From positions 1-64,000 of the forward strand of contig NZ_FMZH01000012.1 in assembly GCF_900101435.1 (NCBI RefSeq): DNA of 64,000 nt, given 5' to 3'. Positions 2,296-16,224 of this stretch are shown piece after piece; the stretch's first letter is position 1; every line of letters begins with the position of its first letter. Under the pieces are notes generated by a model that saw only the letters and a list, made by a program, of their open reading frames with translations, was not told the DNA's origin and did no database searches. The position numbers and the translations under genes were made by a program. This DNA is from Pedobacter soli. GTDB taxonomy: Bacteria > Bacteroidota > Bacteroidia > Sphingobacteriales > Sphingobacteriaceae.

Positions 2296-4173
2296 TTACC
2301 ATCCAGGATTTTGAACCAGTTTGGTGCTTTTCTGAATTTCTGCCAGTGGAATAGGCCATAAATAATAGGCACGGGTAAATACCCTGGTCTCGTATTGTGT
2401 ACGTTTAAGAAAATCGGCATCGGTTTCGGCCCCAACGTTCATACCATAAAAAGGCCCTCCCTGTGCGCCTTGCCCCGAAGCATTTTCGGCAATCATCCAC
2501 CTGCGCACATCAAAATACCGCTGTCCTTCAAAACAAAGTTCTACCCGGCTTTCTTTTCTGATGGCCTCGCGCTGCAAAGCCTGGTTGCCAATTATAGCCG
2601 GATTACTTACACTCCATTTTGGAATACCTGCACGTTCGCGAACCAGATCTACATACTGTGCAATTTTAGGGTCGGCCGGATTAACTTCATTTAATGCTTC
2701 GGCATATAAAAGGTAAAATTCTGCCAGGCGAAAGATAAAAGAAGGGCGGTAAAAAGTTTTCGGTGCCGTGGTTACCGACTGGCTTACTGTTCTGTTTAAA
2801 CGTTTGTACATGTTGTAGCCGGTAATCGAATAGTTAGAAGCAATGTCGTTACCATTCCCTTTGGTGAACTTAATCAGCGCATTGGTTACCGGCCATCTTT
2901 TTCCATGATAAACAATCGAAGCATAAAAACGGGGTTCGCGGTTTACATACATGTTAAAAGTTCCGGCTTCCGATCTTCCTGCAGGCACCTCGGTTACGGT
3001 AGAAAAACCTACCTCACTGTAACCCGATCCCGGATCGTTAATGGATTTACCGTTTTTCATAAAAAAGGCATCTACCAATTCCTGGGTAGGTCCAACATTT
3101 CCGTAGCCACCCTGACTGCGTGGGGTTGCCCGGCGCACCATACCATCTCCGGAAGAAATACTCCCGTAAGCTTCGTTACCGCTTGCCCAGATTACTTCAC
3201 TGTTCATGGCCTGAAACAACTGATAAATAGATTTATCGGGATCTAAAACGCCAGCCGTAAATTCGCGGTACAAATCATATTTACCCACCGAGAAATTAAT
3301 AAAATCCTGAAGTGCACTAACTGCCTTTTGCCATTTGTTATCATCTTTTGCCGGGAACAGTTTTTTACCACTTTTATTGGTTAAGGCCATGGCTTCAGCA
3401 AAACCTCCGTTGTACAATGGGCTTGCGGCCAGAACCAGTATTTTGGCCTTTACTGCCAGCGCAACACCTTTAGTTGGTAAGCCAAGATTATTGATATCAG
3501 TTAGGGAAATATATTCATCCAGATCAGGTGCTACCGCATCCATCTCTTTAGTCACAAAATTAACTACTTCGTCTACACTGTTGCGCTCAAAATCCAGATC
3601 GGCATCGTTTGGGTTAACGGTCTTATCCATAATCGGAACCGGCCCATACAGTTCGAATAACAAATAGTGATAATAGGCCCTTAAAAACCTGGCCTGTGCC
3701 ATTAGTTTTTTGTATTCAGGCTCTTCAATGGCATCGGCAACGGTACCACCGGATGAAGTGCCACCAACACGGGGTATAATTTTAGCATTGGCCATAAAAA
3801 CATTGGCCTGGCGGATATACAGGTATAAATCCCAGCGACTAAAGGGTGCACTTGAAGCATTAAAACCAGCAGGTGGTTCTACCCTGAAAGCGCCTTGCTG
3901 ATTTCTGTTTTCATCGGTAAAAGCTGGCCACGGGTTGTCTACTCCCCTAACGGCTGTAGTAGATAACTGAAAAACCATTGCCGATGAAGTGCCAATACCT
4001 GCAAAAATATTGCGGTGAAAGGCACGTGCATTAGCCGGTGTAGAAAAAATCTGGTCGAGTGTAAGCTGACCGGCTAATTCATCAGATACATTTAAATAGT
4101 TTTTACTGCAGGAACCCATACTGATGATTATGCAGCATAACAACAGGGCTTTATATATTTTTGATTTCATCAT
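2296..4173 (-). CDS. SusD/RagB-family glycan-binding outer-membrane lipoprotein
   Basis: Surface lipoprotein that captures oligosaccharides and passes them to its SusC partner. The N-terminus carries a lipoprotein signal with lipobox SMGSC (Cys ~23), then the SusD N-terminal TPR-type region (NARAFHRNIFAGIG, ARFLRAYYHYLLFELYGPVPIMD) and the C-terminal RagB/SusD region (RPSFIFRLAEFYLLYAEALNEVNP, RKESRVELCFEGQRYFDVRRWM). It ends with YYLWPIPLAEIQ and LVQNPGW, the standard SusD tail. At 625 residues it is normal for a large SusD. It starts 12 bases after the susC stop, so the two are co-transcribed. The substrate is not readable from sequence, but the adjacent GH29 gene suggests fucosylated glycans. 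Confidence 0.95.
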   Translation of the reverse strand: MMKSKIYKALLLCCIIISMGSCSKNYLNVSDELAGQLTLDQIFSTPANARAFHRNIFAGIGTSSAMVFQLSTTAVRGVDNPWPAFTDENRNQQGAFRVEPPAGFNASSAPFSRWDLYLYIRQANVFMANAKIIPRVGGTSSGGTVADAIEEPEYKKLMAQARFLRAYYHYLLFELYGPVPIMDKTVNPNDADLDFERNSVDEVVNFVTKEMDAVAPDLDEYISLTDINNLGLPTKGVALAVKAKILVLAASPLYNGGFAEAMALTNKSGKKLFPAKDDNKWQKAVSALQDFINFSVGKYDLYREFTAGVLDPDKSIYQLFQAMNSEVIWASGNEAYGSISSGDGMVRRATPRSQGGYGNVGPTQELVDAFFMKNGKSINDPGSGYSEVGFSTVTEVPAGRSEAGTFNMYVNREPRFYASIVYHGKRWPVTNALIKFTKGNGNDIASNYSITGYNMYKRLNRTVSQSVTTAPKTFYRPSFIFRLAEFYLLYAEALNEVNPADPKIAQYVDLVRERAGIPKWSVSNPAIIGNQALQREAIRKESRVELCFEGQRYFDVRRWMIAENASGQGAQGGPFYGMNVGAETDADFLKRTQYETRVFTRAYYLWPIPLAEIQKSTKLVQNPGW

Positions 4174-4185
4174 TTCTTCTTTGGA

Positions 4186-7100
4186 TTATAAATTAAACTC
4201 AATGCCAATGGTGTACGAACGTGGAATAGGATAATTTAGCCCTTCATTGGCATTGCCGATCTCAGGATCCCACATTTTAATGCTATCCCAAACGGCTATA
4301 TTGTTACCCATTAAATATATCCTGCCGGTTTCGAAACCAATTTTCCGCAGCATTTTTTTAGGGAAACGATACCCCAGTTCAATATTTTTTAAACGTATAA
4401 AACTGGCATCACGCAGCCACCAGGTGCTTGCTACCTGATTGTTTGCAAAACTGATAGAATGTAACCTTGGGAACATTACATTTTGGCTGGGATTAGCTTC
4501 TGTCCACCTGTCTGCCACTTCAGCCCTTAAATTTGATTCTTCTACACCAAAAGCAAACGGGAAAAAGTTACCTGCAGCGTTTTGGCCAAATACGGTTGAG
4601 GTTTTGGCTACGCCCTGAAAAAAGATACTTCCATAAAAGCCTTTATACTCGGCATTGAGGCCGAAGCCATACACAATGCCCGGGTTTGCAGGATTGCTGC
4701 CTGTATAGTAACTGCGGTCGAAATTATCAATCTTCCCATCACCGTTTAAATCCTTGTATTTAATATCACCGGGCCTAACTACTCCCCCCAGGGTGCTTAC
4801 CGGCAATCCTGGTTTTAAGGTATAGGTGCGTTTTCCTGCCGCATCGGTAGTCAGGGTGAAATCATTATCGGTATGTAAGCCATCGGCGGTATACAAATTC
4901 CACTCCCCTATGCTTGTACCGGTTTGGTTCATCCAGGGATAAGGTTGTGGCAGCTCATCAATCTCAAGTATTTTATTTTTGGCAATAGTTAAATTACCCC
5001 TTGCTGTTAATTTCAGCTCGCCAATATTTTGTTTAATGTTAACTGATCCATCCATCCCTTTGTTAGCTACGGAACCAAAGTTTTGCCATGGCGACTGCCT
5101 GAATCCGGTAACGCCCGAAACGGTGCGGCGTTGCAATAAAATACTGGAACGCAGGTTATTGAAATAATCGACAGAAAAATCGACAGCTCCTTTAAAAAAT
5201 TCGATATCTATTCCGTAATTCCTTTTGTTTTCAATCTCCCAGGTTAAATCGGGTGCTTCAAAACGTCCTTCTACAATACCATTTAGACCATTCAGAGAGC
5301 CGGTGCCACCAATTCCGATCGGATACCCGGTTGTGCCAGTGGTGTAGGTACCGCGGTAAAGAAACCTTGCCCCACCGGTATTATCGTTACCTGTTTTCCC
5401 CACAGATGCCCTGAATTTTAATGATGATACTACTTTGCGCAGTGCTTCGGGATAAAAAGGCTCATTGCTGGCAAACCAGGCACCACCTACTGCAGGGAAA
5501 AACCCAAACCGGTTTTCGGGTGAAAAAGCTTCACTACCGGTAATACCAAAATTCCCTTCTATTGAATATCGGTTGGCATAATTGTAAGTTACCCGGCCTA
5601 CGTAGGCTTGCTTTTTAAAGGCCAGGGCTTCACCTTGTTGCTGCGCCTCTTTTTGATAGGTTAACAACATGGCACCAACGGTGTGGTCGTTTGCGAAAAC
5701 CCGGTTATAATTTAATGAACTCTCTAAATAGATATTTTTTTGGCCGTTGCTTGTTTCTACAGGCTCGCCCAAAGTGGTTTCAGGATTTCCAACCTGAACA
5801 TAGATTAGTTTTCCATTGGCATCGCGCGAGGTTGCATTGAATTGTTTAGGCGATTTTAGCCTGTTCATGTAATAGTTCATGGTAGCATCGAAACTAACAA
5901 TGCCTTTAAAGCTCAATCCTTTGGTTATAAAATCTAATTTCTGATCTAATGATAATTTGGATTGCAAACTTGTTCTCCACTCTTTGGCATAACCAGACTC
6001 CATTAATAAATTATATGGGTTTACCCTGTTACTACTTGGAATACCAGGGTGACCGGCTATGGTGCCATCAGAATAAACGGCCGGGAAGAGATAACCGGGC
6101 ACGCCCATCATCCTCGAAAATATGGCTGCAGTTCCGGTACCGGGGTAATTGGTTAAAAGATACTGTCCGCTCAAATCTACCCCCAAAATGGTTGTTTTGG
6201 TCACATTTAAATCGATATTGCTGCGCAGGTTATAACGCTTAAGACCTAAATTATTATCGTAAATATTGTTGGGATTGGATTTAAAAATCCCGTTTTCCTG
6301 ATAATAGGCCCCGGAAACAAAAAACTTAGCGATATCACCTCCACCCCTGAAATTTAAAGTATGGCGGGTATTAAAGGTATTATCCCTAAGCATAACATCC
6401 AGGAATTTGGTATTCGGATATAAATCAGGGTCTGTTCCGTTTTTATACAAAGCCAGTTGTTCATCTGTTTTAAACACTGGACTATCTTCATTCCTCAAGG
6501 CCTCATTGTAGGCAAAAAGGTAATCGTACGAGTCCATAAACTCGGGGAGCCTGGTGGGTTTATTCTGCGTATACTCGCCGCGGTAAGTAATTTTTGTTTT
6601 TTGTACTATACCACGTTTAGAAGTAATTAAAATTACACCATTAGCGCCTTCAGCCCCATATACCGCAGTAGCCGCGGCATCTTTCAATACGTTAAAGGTT
6701 TCAATTTCATCGGGCTCAATATCGGTCATAGCGCGGGGTATCCCGTCAACCAGTACCAGCGGATTGGTTCCACCTGCAAAAGAGCTTACCCCTCTGATCC
6801 AGAACTCGGCATTATCATAACCCGGTTCTCCCGATCGCTGAATAGCGATAATACCTGGCACCTGGCCTGCAATGGCATTGGTTAAGCTGCGCGTGGGTAC
6901 GCGCAATGCATCGCCCTTTACCGAAGCTACTGAACTAACCAGGCTACTCTTTTTTTGTTTACCAAAGCCAACCACGACCACATCACTCAGGTTAGCCTCA
7001 TCGTTTTTAAGCACCACGTTGATCACTGTACGACCATTTAGCGGTTGTTCCTGACTCTTGTAGCTTAACAAACTAAAAACAAGTACCGCCCCCTCCGGCA

Positions 7101-7623
7101 CTCCTTTTAATACAAAGGCACCGTTTCCATCAGTAGCAGTGCCGATAGTAGGTTTATTTTTAACCTGTACCGTAACACCCGGTAATGCAAGCCCCGAGGT
7201 ATCTTTTACTGTTCCGGTAATGGTTAAGACCTTTAGGGCAATTGGATTTATTTTAGCTGTTTCTAAAATGGTGATGGTTTCTCCGTGAATCCTGAACCCT
7301 AAACCCGAGCCTTGCAAAGCTTTACTTAAGGCGGTATTGATATCGGCATTGCTTACTTTAAAGGTAACCCGAAAAGCCTTTTGGATGATTTCTTCGTTAT
7401 AAAGAAACCGGTAACTGGTCTGTTTATTCAACTCGGCAAAAACAGTTTTTAGTTCCGCATTTTTTACCGAAATATTAACCTGCTGTGCCCTTCCCTTGGC
7501 GAATACACCAATCTGAAGCACAAAGATTAAAAGGGTAATAAGTTTCATAATTCTGATCACTATAGGTATACCGGAAATTGCTTCCCGATGGGCAATATTT
7601 TGTCTGTGACAAAAGAAATTCAT
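4186..7623 (-). CDS. SusC/RagA-type TonB-linked outer-membrane transporter with STN domain
   Basis: TonB-dependent outer-membrane transporter of glycans. Order of parts: signal segment, STN domain (residues ~50-120, from VNISVKNAELKTVFAEL to TITIL), CarboxypepD_reg-like domain (~130-215), plug (~225-340, with DVVVVGFGKQKK, IRGVSSFAGGTNPLVLVDG and the SusC-type DAAATAVYGAEGANGVILI) and a beta-barrel ending YTIGIEFNL. The STN domain is the part that signals to FecR, matching the ECF sigma/FecR genes directly upstream. The start at 7623 gives a 25-residue N-terminal extension before MKLITLL; such extensions are common in Sphingobacteriaceae STN-SusC proteins. The Met at 7548 is an alternative start. 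Confidence 0.95.
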   Translation of the reverse strand: MNFFCHRQNIAHREAISGIPIVIRIMKLITLLIFVLQIGVFAKGRAQQVNISVKNAELKTVFAELNKQTSYRFLYNEEIIQKAFRVTFKVSNADINTALSKALQGSGLGFRIHGETITILETAKINPIALKVLTITGTVKDTSGLALPGVTVQVKNKPTIGTATDGNGAFVLKGVPEGAVLVFSLLSYKSQEQPLNGRTVINVVLKNDEANLSDVVVVGFGKQKKSSLVSSVASVKGDALRVPTRSLTNAIAGQVPGIIAIQRSGEPGYDNAEFWIRGVSSFAGGTNPLVLVDGIPRAMTDIEPDEIETFNVLKDAAATAVYGAEGANGVILITSKRGIVQKTKITYRGEYTQNKPTRLPEFMDSYDYLFAYNEALRNEDSPVFKTDEQLALYKNGTDPDLYPNTKFLDVMLRDNTFNTRHTLNFRGGGDIAKFFVSGAYYQENGIFKSNPNNIYDNNLGLKRYNLRSNIDLNVTKTTILGVDLSGQYLLTNYPGTGTAAIFSRMMGVPGYLFPAVYSDGTIAGHPGIPSSNRVNPYNLLMESGYAKEWRTSLQSKLSLDQKLDFITKGLSFKGIVSFDATMNYYMNRLKSPKQFNATSRDANGKLIYVQVGNPETTLGEPVETSNGQKNIYLESSLNYNRVFANDHTVGAMLLTYQKEAQQQGEALAFKKQAYVGRVTYNYANRYSIEGNFGITGSEAFSPENRFGFFPAVGGAWFASNEPFYPEALRKVVSSLKFRASVGKTGNDNTGGARFLYRGTYTTGTTGYPIGIGGTGSLNGLNGIVEGRFEAPDLTWEIENKRNYGIDIEFFKGAVDFSVDYFNNLRSSILLQRRTVSGVTGFRQSPWQNFGSVANKGMDGSVNIKQNIGELKLTARGNLTIAKNKILEIDELPQPYPWMNQTGTSIGEWNLYTADGLHTDNDFTLTTDAAGKRTYTLKPGLPVSTLGGVVRPGDIKYKDLNGDGKIDNFDRSYYTGSNPANPGIVYGFGLNAEYKGFYGSIFFQGVAKTSTVFGQNAAGNFFPFAFGVEESNLRAEVADRWTEANPSQNVMFPRLHSISFANNQVASTWWLRDASFIRLKNIELGYRFPKKMLRKIGFETGRIYLMGNNIAVWDSIKMWDPEIGNANEGLNYPIPRSYTIGIEFNL

Positions 7624-7690
7624 ACTTTCGTTTGATTTAGGTTAGAGAAATAAGTTCGGTTTTACACTGTTTTTTCGTGTCTGAATTACT

Positions 7691-7718
7691 TACCGGAGGT
7701 GGTGGTACACTTCCGGTA
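7691..7718. other. Hairpin in the fecR-susC gap
   Basis: Inside the 165-base gap between the FecR stop and the SusC start, TACCGGA and TCCGGTA form a seven-base-pair stem around a 14-base loop. No T-tract follows on the minus strand, so it is more likely a leader structure or processing site than a terminator. No clear promoter was seen in this gap. Confidence 0.3.
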
Positions 7719-7788
7719 TTCATTTTTTCAGACATGGATGGTTCTGTCTGCTTTTACATCATATTTTTTCGGTTTGGTTTATATTTGG

Positions 7789-8952
7789 TTAATTGATAAT
7801 CAGGTTGCGGCCTTCTATACCGAAAGAGCGGTTACTTACATCTTTAAGCATATCCAGTACCTCGCTTAACTTAGCCTTTCTGCTTACATGCCCAGTGATA
7901 TGGATTTCTGGTATTTTAGTTTTATAAATGAGTTTTAAATCGTACCATCTGCTTATTTCAGTCAAAACGGGCTCCAGTGCATCATTACTGAAATAGAAAT
8001 CGCCTTTACACCAAGCCACGGCTTTATCTAGATCACCTTTTGCAACTACAATGTTCTGCTGATCAGACAATGCCTGTTTTCCGGGAACGAGGATACTACT
8101 ACTTTCTCCGTTTCTTACCTTAACTGAACCTTCTAAAAGTGTGGTTTTGGCAGTTTGGTTATAGGCTGAGACGTTAAAATGGGTACCTAAAACTTCAACT
8201 TCCGACCCGTTAAGCTTTACTTTAAAGGGACGGGCAGCATCTTTTGCTACTTCGAAATAGGCTTCGCCCTTTAAGCTTACCAACCGCTCATTGTCTGCAA
8301 AACTAACCGGAAATTCCAGTTCAGACATCGCATTCAACATAACTTTTGAACCATCAGGCAAGGTTACTTTATAAGTACCGGCTTTAGGTACAATAAGCGT
8401 ATTGAATTTTGTAGCTGCAAGCGCATTGGTGGCCGACTGACCATAACTGATTTCCCCCTGATTACTCACAATAGTGGTTCCTTTTTCATCACCGATTATC
8501 TGCTTTTCTTTATCTAAGGTTATTTGGGTTCCATCCGAAAGAATCAGTTTAGCGGTTTGGGTACCTGGCAAAACATCGTTCTGGTAGGTCTTAGTAATAT
8601 CAGCCACAATTCCCGGATCAGCTTTATTTAAATTAAAATAGAAAAGAAAAACTCCAATAACTGCAATCAAAATAGCGGCATATTTAAGCCATCCATACCG
8701 GTTCTTGCGTTGAACAACCTGAGGTGTCTGAAAACGGTTATTAACCTTGTGCCAGGCCTGATCTACATCCACACTATCCATGTTGGACAGACGCGCTGCA
8801 GTGGGCTCGGCAGCACGGTAAGCTTCCAATATCCTATACCTTTCTTCATCAGCTGCCAATAGTAACTTCAATCGCTCCTCCTCTTGAGGGGTTAAGGTAC
8901 AAAGCAGATATCCGGAAATTAATGCTGACAATTCAAAGGCTTCTTCTTTCAT
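7789..8952 (-). CDS. FecR-family anti-sigma factor
   Basis: Inner-membrane sigma regulator that holds the neighbouring ECF sigma factor and responds to contact with the STN domain of SusC. The protein has a cytoplasmic N-terminus (residues 1-88), one membrane helix (~90-106, KYAAILIAVIGVFLFYF), a periplasmic FecR domain (~190-285, GTYKVTLPDGSKVMLNAMSELEFP, VEVLGTHFNVSAY) and a C-terminal DUF4974-type secretin-like domain (~310-387, FYFSNDALEPVLTEISRWYDLKL). At 387 residues it is typical of Bacteroidota FecR. It lies 67 bases downstream of the sigma gene on the same strand. Confidence 0.94.
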   Translation of the reverse strand: MKEEAFELSALISGYLLCTLTPQEEERLKLLLAADEERYRILEAYRAAEPTAARLSNMDSVDVDQAWHKVNNRFQTPQVVQRKNRYGWLKYAAILIAVIGVFLFYFNLNKADPGIVADITKTYQNDVLPGTQTAKLILSDGTQITLDKEKQIIGDEKGTTIVSNQGEISYGQSATNALAATKFNTLIVPKAGTYKVTLPDGSKVMLNAMSELEFPVSFADNERLVSLKGEAYFEVAKDAARPFKVKLNGSEVEVLGTHFNVSAYNQTAKTTLLEGSVKVRNGESSSILVPGKQALSDQQNIVVAKGDLDKAVAWCKGDFYFSNDALEPVLTEISRWYDLKLIYKTKIPEIHITGHVSRKAKLSEVLDMLKDVSNRSFGIEGRNLIIN

Positions 8953-9019
8953 CGTTTATATTGGCTATATAACTAAGAAACCTGAAGGGCAAAAAAGGAT
9001 GGAAAATATTTTAAAAAAA

Positions 9020-9580
9020 TTAATGGTGGAGATACATGACCGTAAAAAGTGCCATTGCAGCTTTACCAAGGTGGATTTTCATTAAAGATAAGGCACGTTT
9101 TTTCTGACTTTTAACGGTATTTATGCTAATATTCATCAGCTTGGCAATTTCGCTGTTGCTTAATCCTTCTAAATAGCCATATCTGATTACCATAGCACAT
9201 CCTGGCGGAAGGGCATTGATCTGATCATAAATTTCAGCAATAATCTCGGTATGAATAATACTTTCCAGAATCTGCGGATCAGAATAAATATCCAGGGGAT
9301 TGTTTTTATGATAAACATCAACCACATTATTGTGTCTGATTTTATTTAAACAGGCATTTTTTACGGTTGTGTATAAAAATGATTTTACCGCATTGAAATT
9401 GGCTGCGATACTTTCCTGCTGCTCTAAATAAACCACGAAAGCATCCTGTGCCACATCTTCAGCCAGTTCTTTATCCTTTAAAAGGTAATACGCAAAATCG
9501 TATAAACGCCGGTAAAGCCCCTTAAAAAGCTGCTCTGGTTGCAAAACATCAACAACATCTTCGCCGTTTTTACTGAACAT
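9020..9580 (-). CDS. RNA polymerase ECF-type sigma-70 factor
   Basis: Alternative sigma factor of the FecI-like type, expected to drive the susC/susD genes when glycan is present. Region 2 covers residues ~20-85 (LYDFAYYLLKDKELAEDVAQDAFVVYLE) and region 4 covers ~125-175 (LPPGCAMVIRYGYLEGLSNSEIAKLMNISINTVKSQKKRAL), with the helix-turn-helix clear in the latter. At 186 residues it is normal length. It heads the sigma, FecR, SusC, SusD, fucosidase series. No TAnnTTTG box could be assigned confidently upstream. Confidence 0.95.
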   Translation of the reverse strand: MFSKNGEDVVDVLQPEQLFKGLYRRLYDFAYYLLKDKELAEDVAQDAFVVYLEQQESIAANFNAVKSFLYTTVKNACLNKIRHNNVVDVYHKNNPLDIYSDPQILESIIHTEIIAEIYDQINALPPGCAMVIRYGYLEGLSNSEIAKLMNISINTVKSQKKRALSLMKIHLGKAAMALFTVMYLHH

Positions 9581-10338: not shown

Positions 10339-13300
10339 TTATCCTTCTGCCATTTTATGGTGGAACGGACATTTACTGATATCTCCCTCTTTCTTTTCCA
10401 TCACTTCTGGTGTAGAAACCGGCCTTCTGCGGTGCTGATCCTGTGTAAGCGGGAACACCGAAGTAAAGAAGTTAGACCAACCTCCTGTCCTTACCCTAAG
10501 CAGGTTAAACTGCTCTGGCGAGCCTACAGCCTGGCTATAGGTATCAGGGCTTGCTACTGTAATAGTTAAAATATTGGATGAATGACCTTGGGCGAATTGC
10601 TGCATAACGCGTACGATTCTCTCTGCCGGAAAATCTTCATTCACATTATAATCGGTTGGTGCACCATCGGTCATCAGATCAGTGCCTTCTCCTTCAAAAC
10701 CAGCTAATGAAGCTTCGAAACCTGCATATTGATGTTCTACCGGTAAATCCATCGGACTTGGTGCTGCGCTCAAATCGGAAGCTACAGCAGTACCCAATCT
10801 ACGTCCATCTGCACTCGCACCATTCCAGGCACCCATTTCTACGTGGTTTTCGAATGTACCCACCCCCGGCTGAATCTGAATACCAAAAGGATGCTCTTCT
10901 GTACCGTAACGTACAGCGAGGTTTTGCAAAGCGCTGTACATTTGCGGCAGTGGTTTGGTAAAAGTCTCTACTGAAATTTTAGCAATTCCACCCACGATAG
11001 TATCGCCAAAGGCATCAATTTCGTGATGTCCTCTGCCATAACGCGGCAGGCTTAAAGCAATTTCGCGCAGACGTTTAAAACGATCGGAACGGCTGGTAAT
11101 GCGCGATTCGCCGGCCAGTGTACTGATAAAGGGCTCGGTCATTTTATATCCCCAGTCGCAGCACAAACATTCCAACAACTCGGGCAATGTGGTAACCGCA
11201 TTTTTATCGTCAAACACCATTACTTTAATGGCGTATAATGAATTAATGGCCGAACTTAGCGAGATGTAACAAGGTCCGTAAATATTGTATTTGGTACCAC
11301 CGCTATAAAAATCAAGTCCACGGGCCAGGCAATCGTCCATCAATACGTTTAATATTGGCGAAGGGCAGAATTTGGTGTTGGCACCAAAGCCCATGAGCTG
11401 TCCGTTAAAGGCTTTACGGTTTAACAGTTCAAAATGCTGGAAATAAATCCTTACCAGCTCATCAAAGCTCTTGATCTGATCGGCAGGTTTGGAATTAAGC
11501 GATACATTTTGTCCGAACAGGTAGGCTTGCCCGGCCGATGAATAGGTACGTCCCTGGTTTAAAGCACACTCCAGCGGCTGTAAGGTAGAAAAGCCACCCA
11601 GCGAAAACCAGTTCTCGCCCGGAAACTGTGGCTCGTAGCAACCATCGCAGGCATAATTCTGTGCCGATTGCATGGAAACTGCCGAATTCCAGTTTTTATT
11701 GTTATGACTCAATTCGCCTCCTACATGATCACCACTGCGGTAAAGCCCTTCGATAATTTTCTCATCGTTAAGCAAAATCGGATGTGCACCGCCTGAGAGG
11801 ACAGCATGGGCCGCTTCTTCGAGTATTTCTTTGGGAATATCTTTACGGGTACGCAACGACAGACAAGGTGCATTTAAAGGTAACCTGCCCGAGGCGCGGA
11901 TAAACAGTTTGGTTATATCGTTATAGGCTGGTTTGCTGGCAGCAAAATCTGTAGTGCCATCGGCAATGGTTCCGCCTACGGTAATTTGCTGAATCCACTG
12001 ACCTAAAGAAGCGCCCTGCGGGTACGGACCAGAGGCACCACCCATGGCCAGGTTGCCAAAAGGCTGATGATCTTCCATAAAAATACGGTTCTGCTGTACT
12101 TTCTCATCCAATTTAATGTAAAAAGCATCGATAATTTCCTGTGCTTCATCTTCAGAAATACCATCCTTTTCATAAAAAGGCTGCAACAGCTGATCCATAC
12201 GACCAATTGCGGTAGGCTCGCCGTTTAAGTGCAAACAGGTGTGCAGGGTAAAAATAAACTGTACCGCTTCTACAAAAGTATCGGGCTTATCGTTAGCCAG
12301 TTTTTTCATCCTTGCGGCAATAGCCAGCAGGTTGGCTTTTTCCCAGGCCTGCCCTTCGGCCATTTTTGCAGCAGTTTCCCGTGCCAGCTTTTCGTAGTTC
12401 TGAATGTATTCGGTAATGCCTTGCAACGATAAATATGAAGAACGGTAAAAGTCTTTCAACTCAGCAGTTGTGGCCTTATGCTCGTAAGCCAATACCTCGG
12501 TTTTCATTTGCTGTAAACCTTTTTGCAAGGCTTTTTCGTAGTGCGGAATTACGTGCCCTACTCCCGATGCTTCACTCAGGTTGCTTAAAAAGCCATCCAT
12601 ACGCTCCGTTTCTGAAAGGTATTTCATTACATAACGTCCTTCGCCCAGCGACAGGTTTGGCATAGCACCTACAATAATCTCTTCGGGCGAAATGCGGTAG
12701 GTATCCGATCCGTACACACATTCGCCTTTAGCTTCGATAAAAGCGGAATAAGGGTGTAGCGAACCATCAGGAAACCTGATTTTACGTCCCCTGAAACCGT
12801 AATCGGCCGAGCTGAATAACTGCAGGCTCATGCGTACTGCCCAGCCCTTTCTGATCATGATCGATTCTTTCATGATGTCGGCCGGTTTATCGCTGCCCTC
12901 GTAAGCTTTGATGTAATGTGCCAGGTCTTCTTTAATTTCCTCCTGCTTGCGGTTAAAATACCAGTTGTCCTGCCATAAAGAAAAAATATTTTCGAGCAGA
13001 CTCAGGATACGGTTGCTAGGGGTTTTAAAATAGTGGTTGTGGCGGTTAATACCAGTCGACATGGCAAAAAGATAATTCTGATGGTTGTAGTACATCAGAC
13101 CGTTTTTAGATGCATCCTGATAATGACGGTCTAAACGTGTCCAGTCTACCCCTGGAAATTTAGACCAATCGCCTTTTTCCATAAACGAGAAGTTATTGCT
13201 GTAATCGGGATGTATATCAAGCCCCAAATCATCTACGCTTGGGATGTAAAAAATACCACCCAGATCAGATTTAAGGTGATTGAACAAACGGTCGTTCATA

Positions 13301-14265
13301 AAGCCTTTATCGCCACCAACCTGGTTGCTCATGATGTTTTCGAGAATACCTGCTTCCTTGGCAAAACCGGCAAAGTAAATACCTTCCTCATCAGAAACAG
13401 TAACCGATTTAGGTGCCCTAAAACCAACTGATGATTGTTTAGCTCTGCCAAAAGGTAAACCTAAACGCAGGATTGGTGTGGTATTCCCATGTGCGTCCTG
13501 TATCCGGGCCGATTTAATGTGGCTACGCGAATCGCGGTCGGGAATAATGGTATCATCAGTTTTGCGGCCAATCAGGTCTTCAATCTGGTCTTCTGTCATC
13601 ATGTTGATCTGGTTCCAGTTAATAATAAATCGCTGTGCCAGTACAAACGATCCACCCAGGTGACTAATGTCTTCGCCACCAATTAAAGTATGTTTGGCTA
13701 TGGTGATCGGGTCAGACGGATTGTTGAGGTTTTCGGAAAAACGACAGCCCAGTACCTTACCTTTATTGCCATCCTTTTGGTTGGATTTAGAAGCCGCATC
13801 TTGCGCAAAATAATGTTTGGTTACCCCTTTAAGTCCGTTGGTCAGAAAATCGAGTACAACCTCGCAGGCCTGCTTGCTATCGCTTTTAATGTGAAACCAA
13901 AGATCGCCATCCGTATCATCAAAAACCCCTTTCGAGGCGTCGAAAACATCAGAGGTAAAAGGATCATCTTTGGTTGGGAAATTAAGGCGCATGCCCAGCG
14001 GTAAGGTTAGTCCTTCTTTTTTACAGATATTGGCCCAGTTTTTAAAAGAAATACCCAGTACTACCGAAGTATTTCTGTTGGCCAATACTTCGTTGGTATT
14101 AATTTCTTTCCGTACTGCAGCCATCAGTTCGGTTAATTGCGGCCGGCTTACGGGTGCATTAGTCCAGAAGGTGGTAAAAATGGCAAATGGTGATGGGTAC
14201 ACTAATCCACGCTGACAATGTTTCCACACTTCGTCGAGTCTTTCTTCAAGTTTTAAGGTGTTCAT
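10339..14265 (-). CDS. DyP-type peroxidase-like / glycyl radical enzyme (PFL-like) fusion protein
   Basis: One uninterrupted 1308-residue frame holds two families. Residues ~20-330 resemble B-type DyP haem peroxidases: GDLWFHIKSDS, then LNNPSDP, GGSFVLAQRF, IGRKTDD, SHIKSA (His249, aligned with the proximal haem ligand), ILRLGLPFG (Arg267, aligned with the distal Arg) and GIYFAGFAKE. The GxxDG motif is replaced by RFSEN, so the catalytic Asp position appears to be Glu178. Residues ~440-1290 are a glycyl radical enzyme: thiyl loop DGCYEPQ (Cys876, Glu878; the Cys-x-Glu form of dehydratase/lyase members rather than the Cys-Cys of pyruvate formate-lyase) and the C-terminal RTGGWSNFF, aligned with RVSGYSAYF, giving candidate radical Gly1262. 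The tail has KCPFHH (Cys1299), like a haem-regulatory Cys-Pro motif. No signal peptide is present. No radical-SAM activase occurs in the window. The substrate is unknown. Family assignments are firm, the catalytic state is not. Confidence 0.88.
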   Translation of the reverse strand: MNTLKLEERLDEVWKHCQRGLVYPSPFAIFTTFWTNAPVSRPQLTELMAAVRKEINTNEVLANRNTSVVLGISFKNWANICKKEGLTLPLGMRLNFPTKDDPFTSDVFDASKGVFDDTDGDLWFHIKSDSKQACEVVLDFLTNGLKGVTKHYFAQDAASKSNQKDGNKGKVLGCRFSENLNNPSDPITIAKHTLIGGEDISHLGGSFVLAQRFIINWNQINMMTEDQIEDLIGRKTDDTIIPDRDSRSHIKSARIQDAHGNTTPILRLGLPFGRAKQSSVGFRAPKSVTVSDEEGIYFAGFAKEAGILENIMSNQVGGDKGFMNDRLFNHLKSDLGGIFYIPSVDDLGLDIHPDYSNNFSFMEKGDWSKFPGVDWTRLDRHYQDASKNGLMYYNHQNYLFAMSTGINRHNHYFKTPSNRILSLLENIFSLWQDNWYFNRKQEEIKEDLAHYIKAYEGSDKPADIMKESIMIRKGWAVRMSLQLFSSADYGFRGRKIRFPDGSLHPYSAFIEAKGECVYGSDTYRISPEEIIVGAMPNLSLGEGRYVMKYLSETERMDGFLSNLSEASGVGHVIPHYEKALQKGLQQMKTEVLAYEHKATTAELKDFYRSSYLSLQGITEYIQNYEKLARETAAKMAEGQAWEKANLLAIAARMKKLANDKPDTFVEAVQFIFTLHTCLHLNGEPTAIGRMDQLLQPFYEKDGISEDEAQEIIDAFYIKLDEKVQQNRIFMEDHQPFGNLAMGGASGPYPQGASLGQWIQQITVGGTIADGTTDFAASKPAYNDITKLFIRASGRLPLNAPCLSLRTRKDIPKEILEEAAHAVLSGGAHPILLNDEKIIEGLYRSGDHVGGELSHNNKNWNSAVSMQSAQNYACDGCYEPQFPGENWFSLGGFSTLQPLECALNQGRTYSSAGQAYLFGQNVSLNSKPADQIKSFDELVRIYFQHFELLNRKAFNGQLMGFGANTKFCPSPILNVLMDDCLARGLDFYSGGTKYNIYGPCYISLSSAINSLYAIKVMVFDDKNAVTTLPELLECLCCDWGYKMTEPFISTLAGESRITSRSDRFKRLREIALSLPRYGRGHHEIDAFGDTIVGGIAKISVETFTKPLPQMYSALQNLAVRYGTEEHPFGIQIQPGVGTFENHVEMGAWNGASADGRRLGTAVASDLSAAPSPMDLPVEHQYAGFEASLAGFEGEGTDLMTDGAPTDYNVNEDFPAERIVRVMQQFAQGHSSNILTITVASPDTYSQAVGSPEQFNLLRVRTGGWSNFFTSVFPLTQDQHRRRPVSTPEVMEKKEGDISKCPFHHKMAEG

Positions 14266-14646: not shown

Positions 14647-16224
14647 TTGAAAACAACTCCTAAAATAAGCAGCAACATAATACAGCGATTGGCCTTTATA
14701 CTCTTGCTTTTAACTGGTGTAAACACCTTTGCGCAACAAAAGAAAAGCAGGCCAAATATCATTTTATTTTTAGTAGATGATATGGGTATCATGGATACTT
14801 CTGTTCCTTTTCGCGGCGAGGCAATGCCCTTAAACAAGCGATATCATACCCCCAACATGGAGCGATTGGCCAAACAAGGCATGAAATTTACCAATGCGTA
14901 TGCGCAACCGGTTTGTACGCCCACACGAACAAGCTTGCTTACAGGAATGAACACGGCACGTACCCACATCACCAACTGGACATCGCCCAATAAAAATGAA
15001 CCAACAGATGCTAAAGACGAACAGTTTGGTCCTTTAAACTGGAATATTAACGGATTAAGCAACACTCCGCAAACCGAAAACACAGTTTATGCTACTACTT
15101 TCCCACAATTATTAAAAAATGCAGGCTACTACACCATTCATGTAGGCAAAGCGCATTGGGGCTCAATGGGTACACCAGGATCAAACCCTTACAACCTGGG
15201 GTTTATGGTTAATATTGCCGGTCACTCGGCAGGTCACCCGCAAAGTTATCTTTCCGAGCAACGCTATGGCAATTTACCAGGCAAAGCACAGGCACAAGCC
15301 GTGCCCGATTTGCAGGAATACTATAATACCGGTACTTTTTTAACTGAAGCACTGACTCTAGAAGCTAAGAAAGCGATGGAAACGCCTATTGCCAGAAAAG
15401 AACCTTTTTATCTCAATCTGGCACATTATGCTGTACATGTACCACTAATGGCCGATAAACGTTTTGTGCAGCGATATTATGATGCTGGGTTAGATAGTGC
15501 CGAAGCCAGGTATGCCAGCATGATTGAAGGTATGGACAAAAGTTTGGGCGATATTATGGATTTCCTTAAAGCAAAGGGCATAGCAGAAAATACCATTATA
15601 GTTTTTATGAGCGATAATGGTGGCTTGGACGCGCATGGTCGTGGTGGACCGGTGAATACGCACAATTATCCTTTCCGTTCGGGAAAAGGTTCGGTATATG
15701 AAGGCGGTATCCGCGAGCCGATGCTGGTAAAATGGCCAGGTGTAACCAAACCACAAAGTACAAATGCCAATCCGGTAATTATCGATGATTTTTTTCCCAC
15801 TATACTGGATTGGGCAGGCATACGCAATAATAAAACGATTCAAAAACTGGATGGCATAAGCCTGGTACCTACCTTAAAAAACCCAGCTGTTAAACTTACC
15901 GAACGCCCACTCGTTTTCCATTACCCAAACAAATGGACCAACGAAAAGGAAAAAGATGAGCAGCTTTTAGGCATAAACTATTATAGTGCGCTAAGGTACG
16001 GCCAATGGAAACTGATTTACCGCATGCGAAACCAGGAATTAGAATTGTACGATTTGAGTAAGGATATATCGGAGAAAAATAACCTGGCAGCAGCAAATCC
16101 TGCCGAGACTAAAAAACTGGCTGGCATTTTAGGTAAAACCTTAAAAGAACGTGGTGCACAAATGCCTGTAGCAAGTAGTACATCAAAGCCAGTTCCTTTC
16201 CCTGATGAAGTGACTATCCGGTAA
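14647..16224 (+). CDS. Sulfatase (arylsulfatase family), exported
   Basis: Type I sulfatase that hydrolyses sulfate esters, probably on glycans. The signal peptide is followed by RPNIILFLVDDMG (metal-binding Asp pair), QPVCTPTRTSLLTG (Cys90 in the C-x-P-x-R signature that is converted to formylglycine) and VFMSDNGGLDAHGRGGP (second metal site). The start is TTG at 14647: no ATG lies between the upstream sequence and a good signal peptide (KTTPKISSNIIQRLAFILLLLTG), so TTG is preferred. At 525 residues it has normal length. No anaerobic sulfatase-maturing enzyme is in the window. Together with the GH29 locus it suggests sulfated, fucosylated glycans as food; that is inference. Confidence 0.93.
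   Translation: MKTTPKISSNIIQRLAFILLLLTGVNTFAQQKKSRPNIILFLVDDMGIMDTSVPFRGEAMPLNKRYHTPNMERLAKQGMKFTNAYAQPVCTPTRTSLLTGMNTARTHITNWTSPNKNEPTDAKDEQFGPLNWNINGLSNTPQTENTVYATTFPQLLKNAGYYTIHVGKAHWGSMGTPGSNPYNLGFMVNIAGHSAGHPQSYLSEQRYGNLPGKAQAQAVPDLQEYYNTGTFLTEALTLEAKKAMETPIARKEPFYLNLAHYAVHVPLMADKRFVQRYYDAGLDSAEARYASMIEGMDKSLGDIMDFLKAKGIAENTIIVFMSDNGGLDAHGRGGPVNTHNYPFRSGKGSVYEGGIREPMLVKWPGVTKPQSTNANPVIIDDFFPTILDWAGIRNNKTIQKLDGISLVPTLKNPAVKLTERPLVFHYPNKWTNEKEKDEQLLGINYYSALRYGQWKLIYRMRNQELELYDLSKDISEKNNLAAANPAETKKLAGILGKTLKERGAQMPVASSTSKPVPFPDEVTIR

Follow-up and report, generated by a model that had tools for sequence, protein, structure and literature searches.

Why should a haem peroxidase be joined, in one polypeptide of an aerobic-looking bacterium, to a glycyl radical enzyme (GRE), a class whose members are taught to be strictly anaerobic and to need a radical-SAM activase? 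The locus that raises this question lies in the first 64,000 nucleotides of contig NZ_FMZH01000012.1 of Pedobacter soli (GCF_900101435.1), the whole of which is called the window here. An open reading frame of 1308 codons runs without interruption along the minus strand from 10339 to 14265, where the plus strand is full of stops; residue n begins at position 14265-3(n-1), and all features of the protein given below are on the minus strand. Its product, DyP-GRE, comprises an N-terminal DyP-type peroxidase domain and a C-terminal GRE. We lean modestly towards reading DyP-GRE as an enzyme of the glycyl-radical type that activates itself and serves cells exposed to oxygen, in which the DyP domain would replace the radical-SAM activase. 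A wider claim, for which we see the case as evenly balanced, is that such proteins would be the first enzymes of the glycyl-radical fold to owe their activation to a haem peroxidase rather than to radical SAM, a peroxide-dependent state reached more than once and with different DyP classes.

The fusion is a real, conserved and uncharacterised protein family, noticed earlier but unexplained. In a scan of species genomes, full-length copies were found in 24 other genomes from two phyla at 64–99% identity, together with a few partial copies, which rules out a misassembly or an annotation artefact. Gene decay is likewise excluded by strong purifying selection: the ratio of nonsynonymous to synonymous substitution rates (dN/dS) is 0.03–0.13 and is similar in the DyP half, the linker and the GRE half, where it can be estimated. 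Hosts belong to Pedobacter, Taibaiella, Flavobacterium, Acinetobacter, Burkholderia, Trinickia, Rheinheimera, Shewanella, Marinomonas and Hahella, and include some metagenome-assembled genomes. The spread is patchy: within the host's order the fusion occurs in 14 of 380 genomes, all of the same genus, and a sample of 398 genomes from the phylum of Acinetobacter gave four matches at E 1e-35 or better, the intact fusions among them being those of Acinetobacter itself and of genome G665. Two members are deep, namely a protein on an Asticcacaulis plasmid (39% identity) and the 1209-residue G665 protein (42% identity in the GRE part). Phage records held no fusion, their matches being partial GREs or free DyPs.

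A preliminary description of this DNA, made from the sequence alone, had reported the single 1308-residue frame and quoted DyP-type and glycyl-radical motifs from it; the frame stands, on the minus strand, and every motif is present in the translation. Its statement that no protein of this architecture has been characterised also seems correct, although the architecture itself has been reported before: Zamocky et al. 2016 (PMC5041501), citing a 2014 review, described a DyP-B/PFL fusion in Chaetomium and bacteria as hypothetical proteins of elusive significance, and found the Chaetomium transcript raised 3-fold by H2O2 and 18.5-fold by peroxyacetic acid. Beyond that paper we found nothing on the fusion in the open-access literature, and no paper proposing a DyP as activator. 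New here are the absence of the activase in the bacteria, an activase-linked unfused sister lineage and further DyP pairings.

Both domain assignments are upheld by curated hidden Markov models. The DyP domain (residues 1–346, 13228..14265) matches NCBIfam Dyp_perox_fam TIGR01413 over residues 18–346 (135.1 bits against a cut-off of 100.5) and Pfam Dyp_perox_C PF20628 over residues 181–345 (55.5 bits against 20), and is closest to B-type DyPs, with best PDB matches to 9obr, 7bok and DypB (3qnr/3vee). By alignment, H249 (13519..13521) is the predicted proximal haem ligand and R267 (13465..13467), aligned with the ILR/IMR of DyPs, the predicted distal arginine; both are invariant. The counterpart of the DyP GxxDG motif is GCRFSENLNNP (13717..13749), in which the distal aspartate is absent and its place is taken by E178 (13732–13734, codon position checked). 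Glutamate stands there throughout the core family, where it is invariant, and in Asticcacaulis; the deep member G665 has aspartate, so that an acid is kept at this position despite the exchange. Because of this glutamate we assign the half to the DyP family as a member whose distal motif is a variant, not as a canonical DyP; that it binds haem through H249 and carries out peroxide chemistry is what its residues lead us to infer.

The GRE half is 66–90% identical across homologues. Residues 347–554 (12604..13227), a linker and a divergent N-terminal part of the barrel, have no Pfam match and a dN/dS of 0.05–0.09 where measurable; they are followed by the GRE barrel proper (residues 555–1104, 10954..12603), matched by Pfam PFL-like PF02901 at 332.6 bits against a cut-off of 24.3. 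Alignment to the PFL2-3 model extends to residue 1281, and the GRE, at about 555–1281, is of the diol-dehydratase/PFL2 type; the best Foldseek match is 1,2-propanediol dehydratase 5i2g (E 2.5e-23), from a model of the GRE half alone whose pTM of 0.68 suffices for fold recognition only. H571 in the motif GVGHV (12553..12555), invariant, is the counterpart of the conserved histidine of GRE diol dehydratases, and C876-Y-E878 (11632..11640), aligned with their GCVEP, is the predicted thiyl-radical cysteine with an eliminase-type glutamate (C-x-E). Downstream of C876, cysteine, glutamate and histidine having been kept, the aspartate of the diol dehydratases has become Ser888. The third of the expected domains, Pfam Gly_radical PF01228, gave no match above threshold in the P. 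soli genome because the loop has diverged: it reads RVRTGGWSNFF (10465..10497), with R-T-G-G-W invariant in the core family, where RVxGYxxxF is usual. Its alignment with the glycyl loop (RVAGYSALF) of known, solved GREs is nonetheless kept and makes G1262 (10480–10482) the predicted radical glycine. C876, E878, R1259 and G1262 do not vary among the 24 homologues and are retained by the deep fused members; in the core family, 559 alignment columns are invariant, among them H249, R267, E178, H571 and these four. Both catalytic sites thus look intact, and elimination, by a dehydratase or a lyase, is the most likely type of reaction for the GRE. Separately, the protein ends in the tail DISKCPFHHKMAEG (10342..10383), whose Cys-Pro-Phe/Tyr (here in CPFHH) is kept in nearly all core members and absent from the deep ones; a role in haem binding of the Cys-Pro type is conceivable.

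To our knowledge, every characterised GRE requires a radical-SAM activase. Using the GRE activating protein model TIGR02494 at its family cut-off, we found such an activase in only one of 26 fusion genomes (that of P. soli, 23 others including Shewanella, G301 and G665), compared with all 13 genomes carrying related unfused GREs, in each of which it adjoins the GRE (Fisher p 1.7e-9, for distinct genomes and uncorrected for kinship). No match reached the cut-off in P. soli, G301 or G665, nor in any of 13 Pedobacter fusion genomes, which are partly of the same species; Hymenobacter and Asticcacaulis entered the analysis with their plasmids. P. soli encodes 18 radical-SAM proteins, none recognised as a GRE activase: MoaA, MiaB, MtaB, RimO, HemW, HemN, BioB, LipA, MqnC/E-like, RlmN, ThiH, QueE, YtqA-like, PA0069, UDG-linked and SPASM maturase-like families are represented, along with one protein of 733 residues without a family; all the others have an assigned family or a near match. 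The only TIGR02494 match in the genome (C21), below the cut-off, is MoaA. An operon partner in this role is likewise rejected, no neighbour of the fusion being conserved across the family. In Trinickia terrae, a 73-bit TIGR02494 match (L048 1435–1929) lies in an interrupted frame and looks, by eye, like a broken PflA-type remnant; it was not accepted as an activase and is consistent with activase loss.

The relatives of the GRE half show the same alternation of activase and DyP. In a maximum-likelihood tree, whose long branches make the deep order tentative, this half belongs to a clade whose GREs carry a GGW loop (support 100/100). Two members of the clade, G145 and G262, are unfused and end in R[VI]GGW; they are the nearest unfused relatives of the fusion, and both have a canonical TIGR02494 activase next door. 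Their sister is another fusion, from genome G301 (of the same class as P. soli), whose DyP half is of the C/V type and closest to Alr1585 (E 4e-73) and DyP2; it has no similarity to the B-type halves by pairwise BLASTP. Beside the main fusion clade stands a Hymenobacter plasmid GRE followed after 12 bp by a separate DyP gene, the first half of which is closest to EfeB; both genes are frame-disrupted in the record and were read piecewise. DyPs of three classes thus accompany GREs of this one clade, the B-type and the C/V-type within fusions and the EfeB-like one encoded by a neighbouring gene of its own. Since GREs of a single clade come with either an activase or a DyP, we read the pattern as activator replacement, in which a DyP would have taken the place of the radical-SAM activase.

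How might such an enzyme work? Compound I of haem peroxidases has the oxidising power to form radicals on proteins; in cyclooxygenase, a haem peroxidase site makes the radical used in the second site, and in class I ribonucleotide reductase O2/metal chemistry stands in for SAM chemistry. In DyP-GRE, the N-terminal domain would bind haem through H249 and react with peroxide to give a high-valent ferryl species (compound I), and the oxidising equivalent could then reach the GRE half by electron/proton transfer within the protein, to give either a glycyl radical at G1262 or, in one step, a thiyl radical at C876. The cysteine thiyl would in turn take hydrogen from a small substrate, so that an elimination of the dehydratase or lyase kind could follow. 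If the radical were transient and made anew at every turnover, the O2 sensitivity of a stored glycyl radical would be avoided. The transfer and the path it takes are inferred, as are the substrate and the reaction. The preliminary description had offered three roles for the peroxidase-like half: protecting the radical half, feeding it an electron or radical, or sensing. Feeding a radical is favoured, because the fusion genomes are without a dedicated activase, the unfused relatives have one and three DyP classes are paired with these GREs. We also count for the DyP as activator that its acid, histidine and arginine are kept together with the cysteine, glutamate, arginine and glycine of the GRE, and that the Chaetomium transcript is induced by peroxide (PMC5041501); the lack of conserved neighbours we count for a self-sufficient enzyme.

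Several points weigh against activation by the DyP. The main chemical difficulty is that O2 destroys the glycyl radicals of known GREs, so an aerobe would need shielding or a transient radical. Tryptophan in place of tyrosine after the radical glycine is found in the activase-linked relatives too and thus does not single out activation by a DyP. Residues 1–1200 gave a poor AlphaFold model (pLDDT 49, pTM 0.41), in which the haem cannot be positioned with respect to C876 or G1262. Shewanella, a fusion genome, does have a TIGR02494 activase, which adjoins that strain's own canonical PFL. An activase that the model does not recognise is possible, the 733-residue radical-SAM protein fitting no assigned family, and a putative PFL activase has been reported in Chaetomium, itself a carrier of the fusion (PMC5041501).

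Among the other explanations, the one that survives best, while still unlikely, is that the GRE half no longer performs radical chemistry and its fold is kept for binding or catalysis, for example to present a substrate to the peroxidase, an activase then being needless. The missing activase, the aerobic look of the hosts, the C-terminus that Pfam Gly_radical no longer recognises and the change of the dehydratase aspartate to serine near C876 all fit such a scaffold; what it leaves without a reason is the invariance of C876, E878, R1259 and G1262 in the 24 homologues and their conservation in the deep fused members. We rate as a shade less probable again that the DyP protects, clearing peroxide from around an oxygen-sensitive GRE whose activase would be another radical-SAM protein that has escaped recognition. 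DyPs are peroxidases, and the peroxide-induced Chaetomium transcript and the putative activase of that fungus (PMC5041501) agree with protection. However, 25 of the 26 fusion genomes have no dedicated activase, nearly all radical-SAM proteins of P. soli have other assigned roles, a peroxidase gives no defence against O2 itself, and the unfused relatives retain their activase without a DyP; protection alone would also leave the origin of the radical unexplained. Last, and improbable, is a DyP that senses haem, peroxide or O2 and switches on or off a GRE activated by another route: bacterial haem sensor domains are widespread and most of the family has glutamate in place of the distal aspartate, but arginine, acid and histidine are all conserved as in a peroxidase, the domains recruited belong to three DyP classes and not to the known haem sensors, and there is no alternative activase.

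Turning to the surroundings of the gene, the fusion lies between an ECF sigma/FecR/SusC/SusD locus (2296–9580) and a divergent sulfatase gene (14647–16224), neighbours common only to close Pedobacter relatives. Two distant lineages have an FGE-sulfatase (SUMF1-like) gene upstream of the fusion: in Asticcacaulis, with a B-type DyP, it comes directly before the fusion (L087 5891–6895), and in G301, with a C/V-type DyP, a single small gene separates the two (L079 2800–3762); it could encode a partner or reflect a shared mobile or conflict context. Directly 3' of the GRE, and on the same strand, activase-linked G145 and fused G665 have a HAD-like or DUF2608 gene (L080 6551–7594; L089 9473–10426), possibly encoding a phosphatase of the same pathway. 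Next to the Hymenobacter GRE/DyP pair are divergent STAND-like ATPase and Trypsin_2 genes (L088 866–7190), a set resembling published NTP-dependent conflict systems.

If activation by the DyP is correct, GREs would have a second activation route, found in aerobic-looking bacteria such as Pedobacter, Acinetobacter and Burkholderia. Their chemistry could then run in aerobes, showing how radical chemistry entered oxygenated life, and an aerobic, activase-free GRE could serve biotechnology. The idea can be put to the test in one purified protein, and it suggests a function for a fusion left unexplained in the literature since at least 2016.

Among known proteins, the nearest in layout are the DyP-B/PFL proteins of Chaetomium and bacteria (PMC5041501), which by description have the same order, an N-terminal B-type DyP before a C-terminal PFL/glycyl-radical region; that paper assumed a PFL activase, and the fungal proteins were compared by description only. 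The GRE half is closest, by sequence and fold among PDB entries, to the GRE diol dehydratases 1,2-propanediol dehydratase (5i2g) and B12-independent glycerol dehydratase (1r8w), sharing GVGH, GCxEP and the Arg-x-x-Gly glycyl loop; it differs in being about 20% identical, in Ser888 for the dehydratase aspartate and GGW for xGY, and in being joined to a DyP without an activase. With B-type DyPs (DypB and the encapsulin cargo DyPs) the other half shares the fold family, proximal histidine, distal arginine and acid at the GxxDG position, whereas it has glutamate for aspartate in most members and is not free-standing, and the encapsulin-targeting function of the cargo DyPs is not evident. In working principle, DyP-GRE would resemble cyclooxygenase and class I ribonucleotide reductase, not homologous to it, in which a peroxide- or O2-driven metal centre makes a radical that is used elsewhere in the protein.

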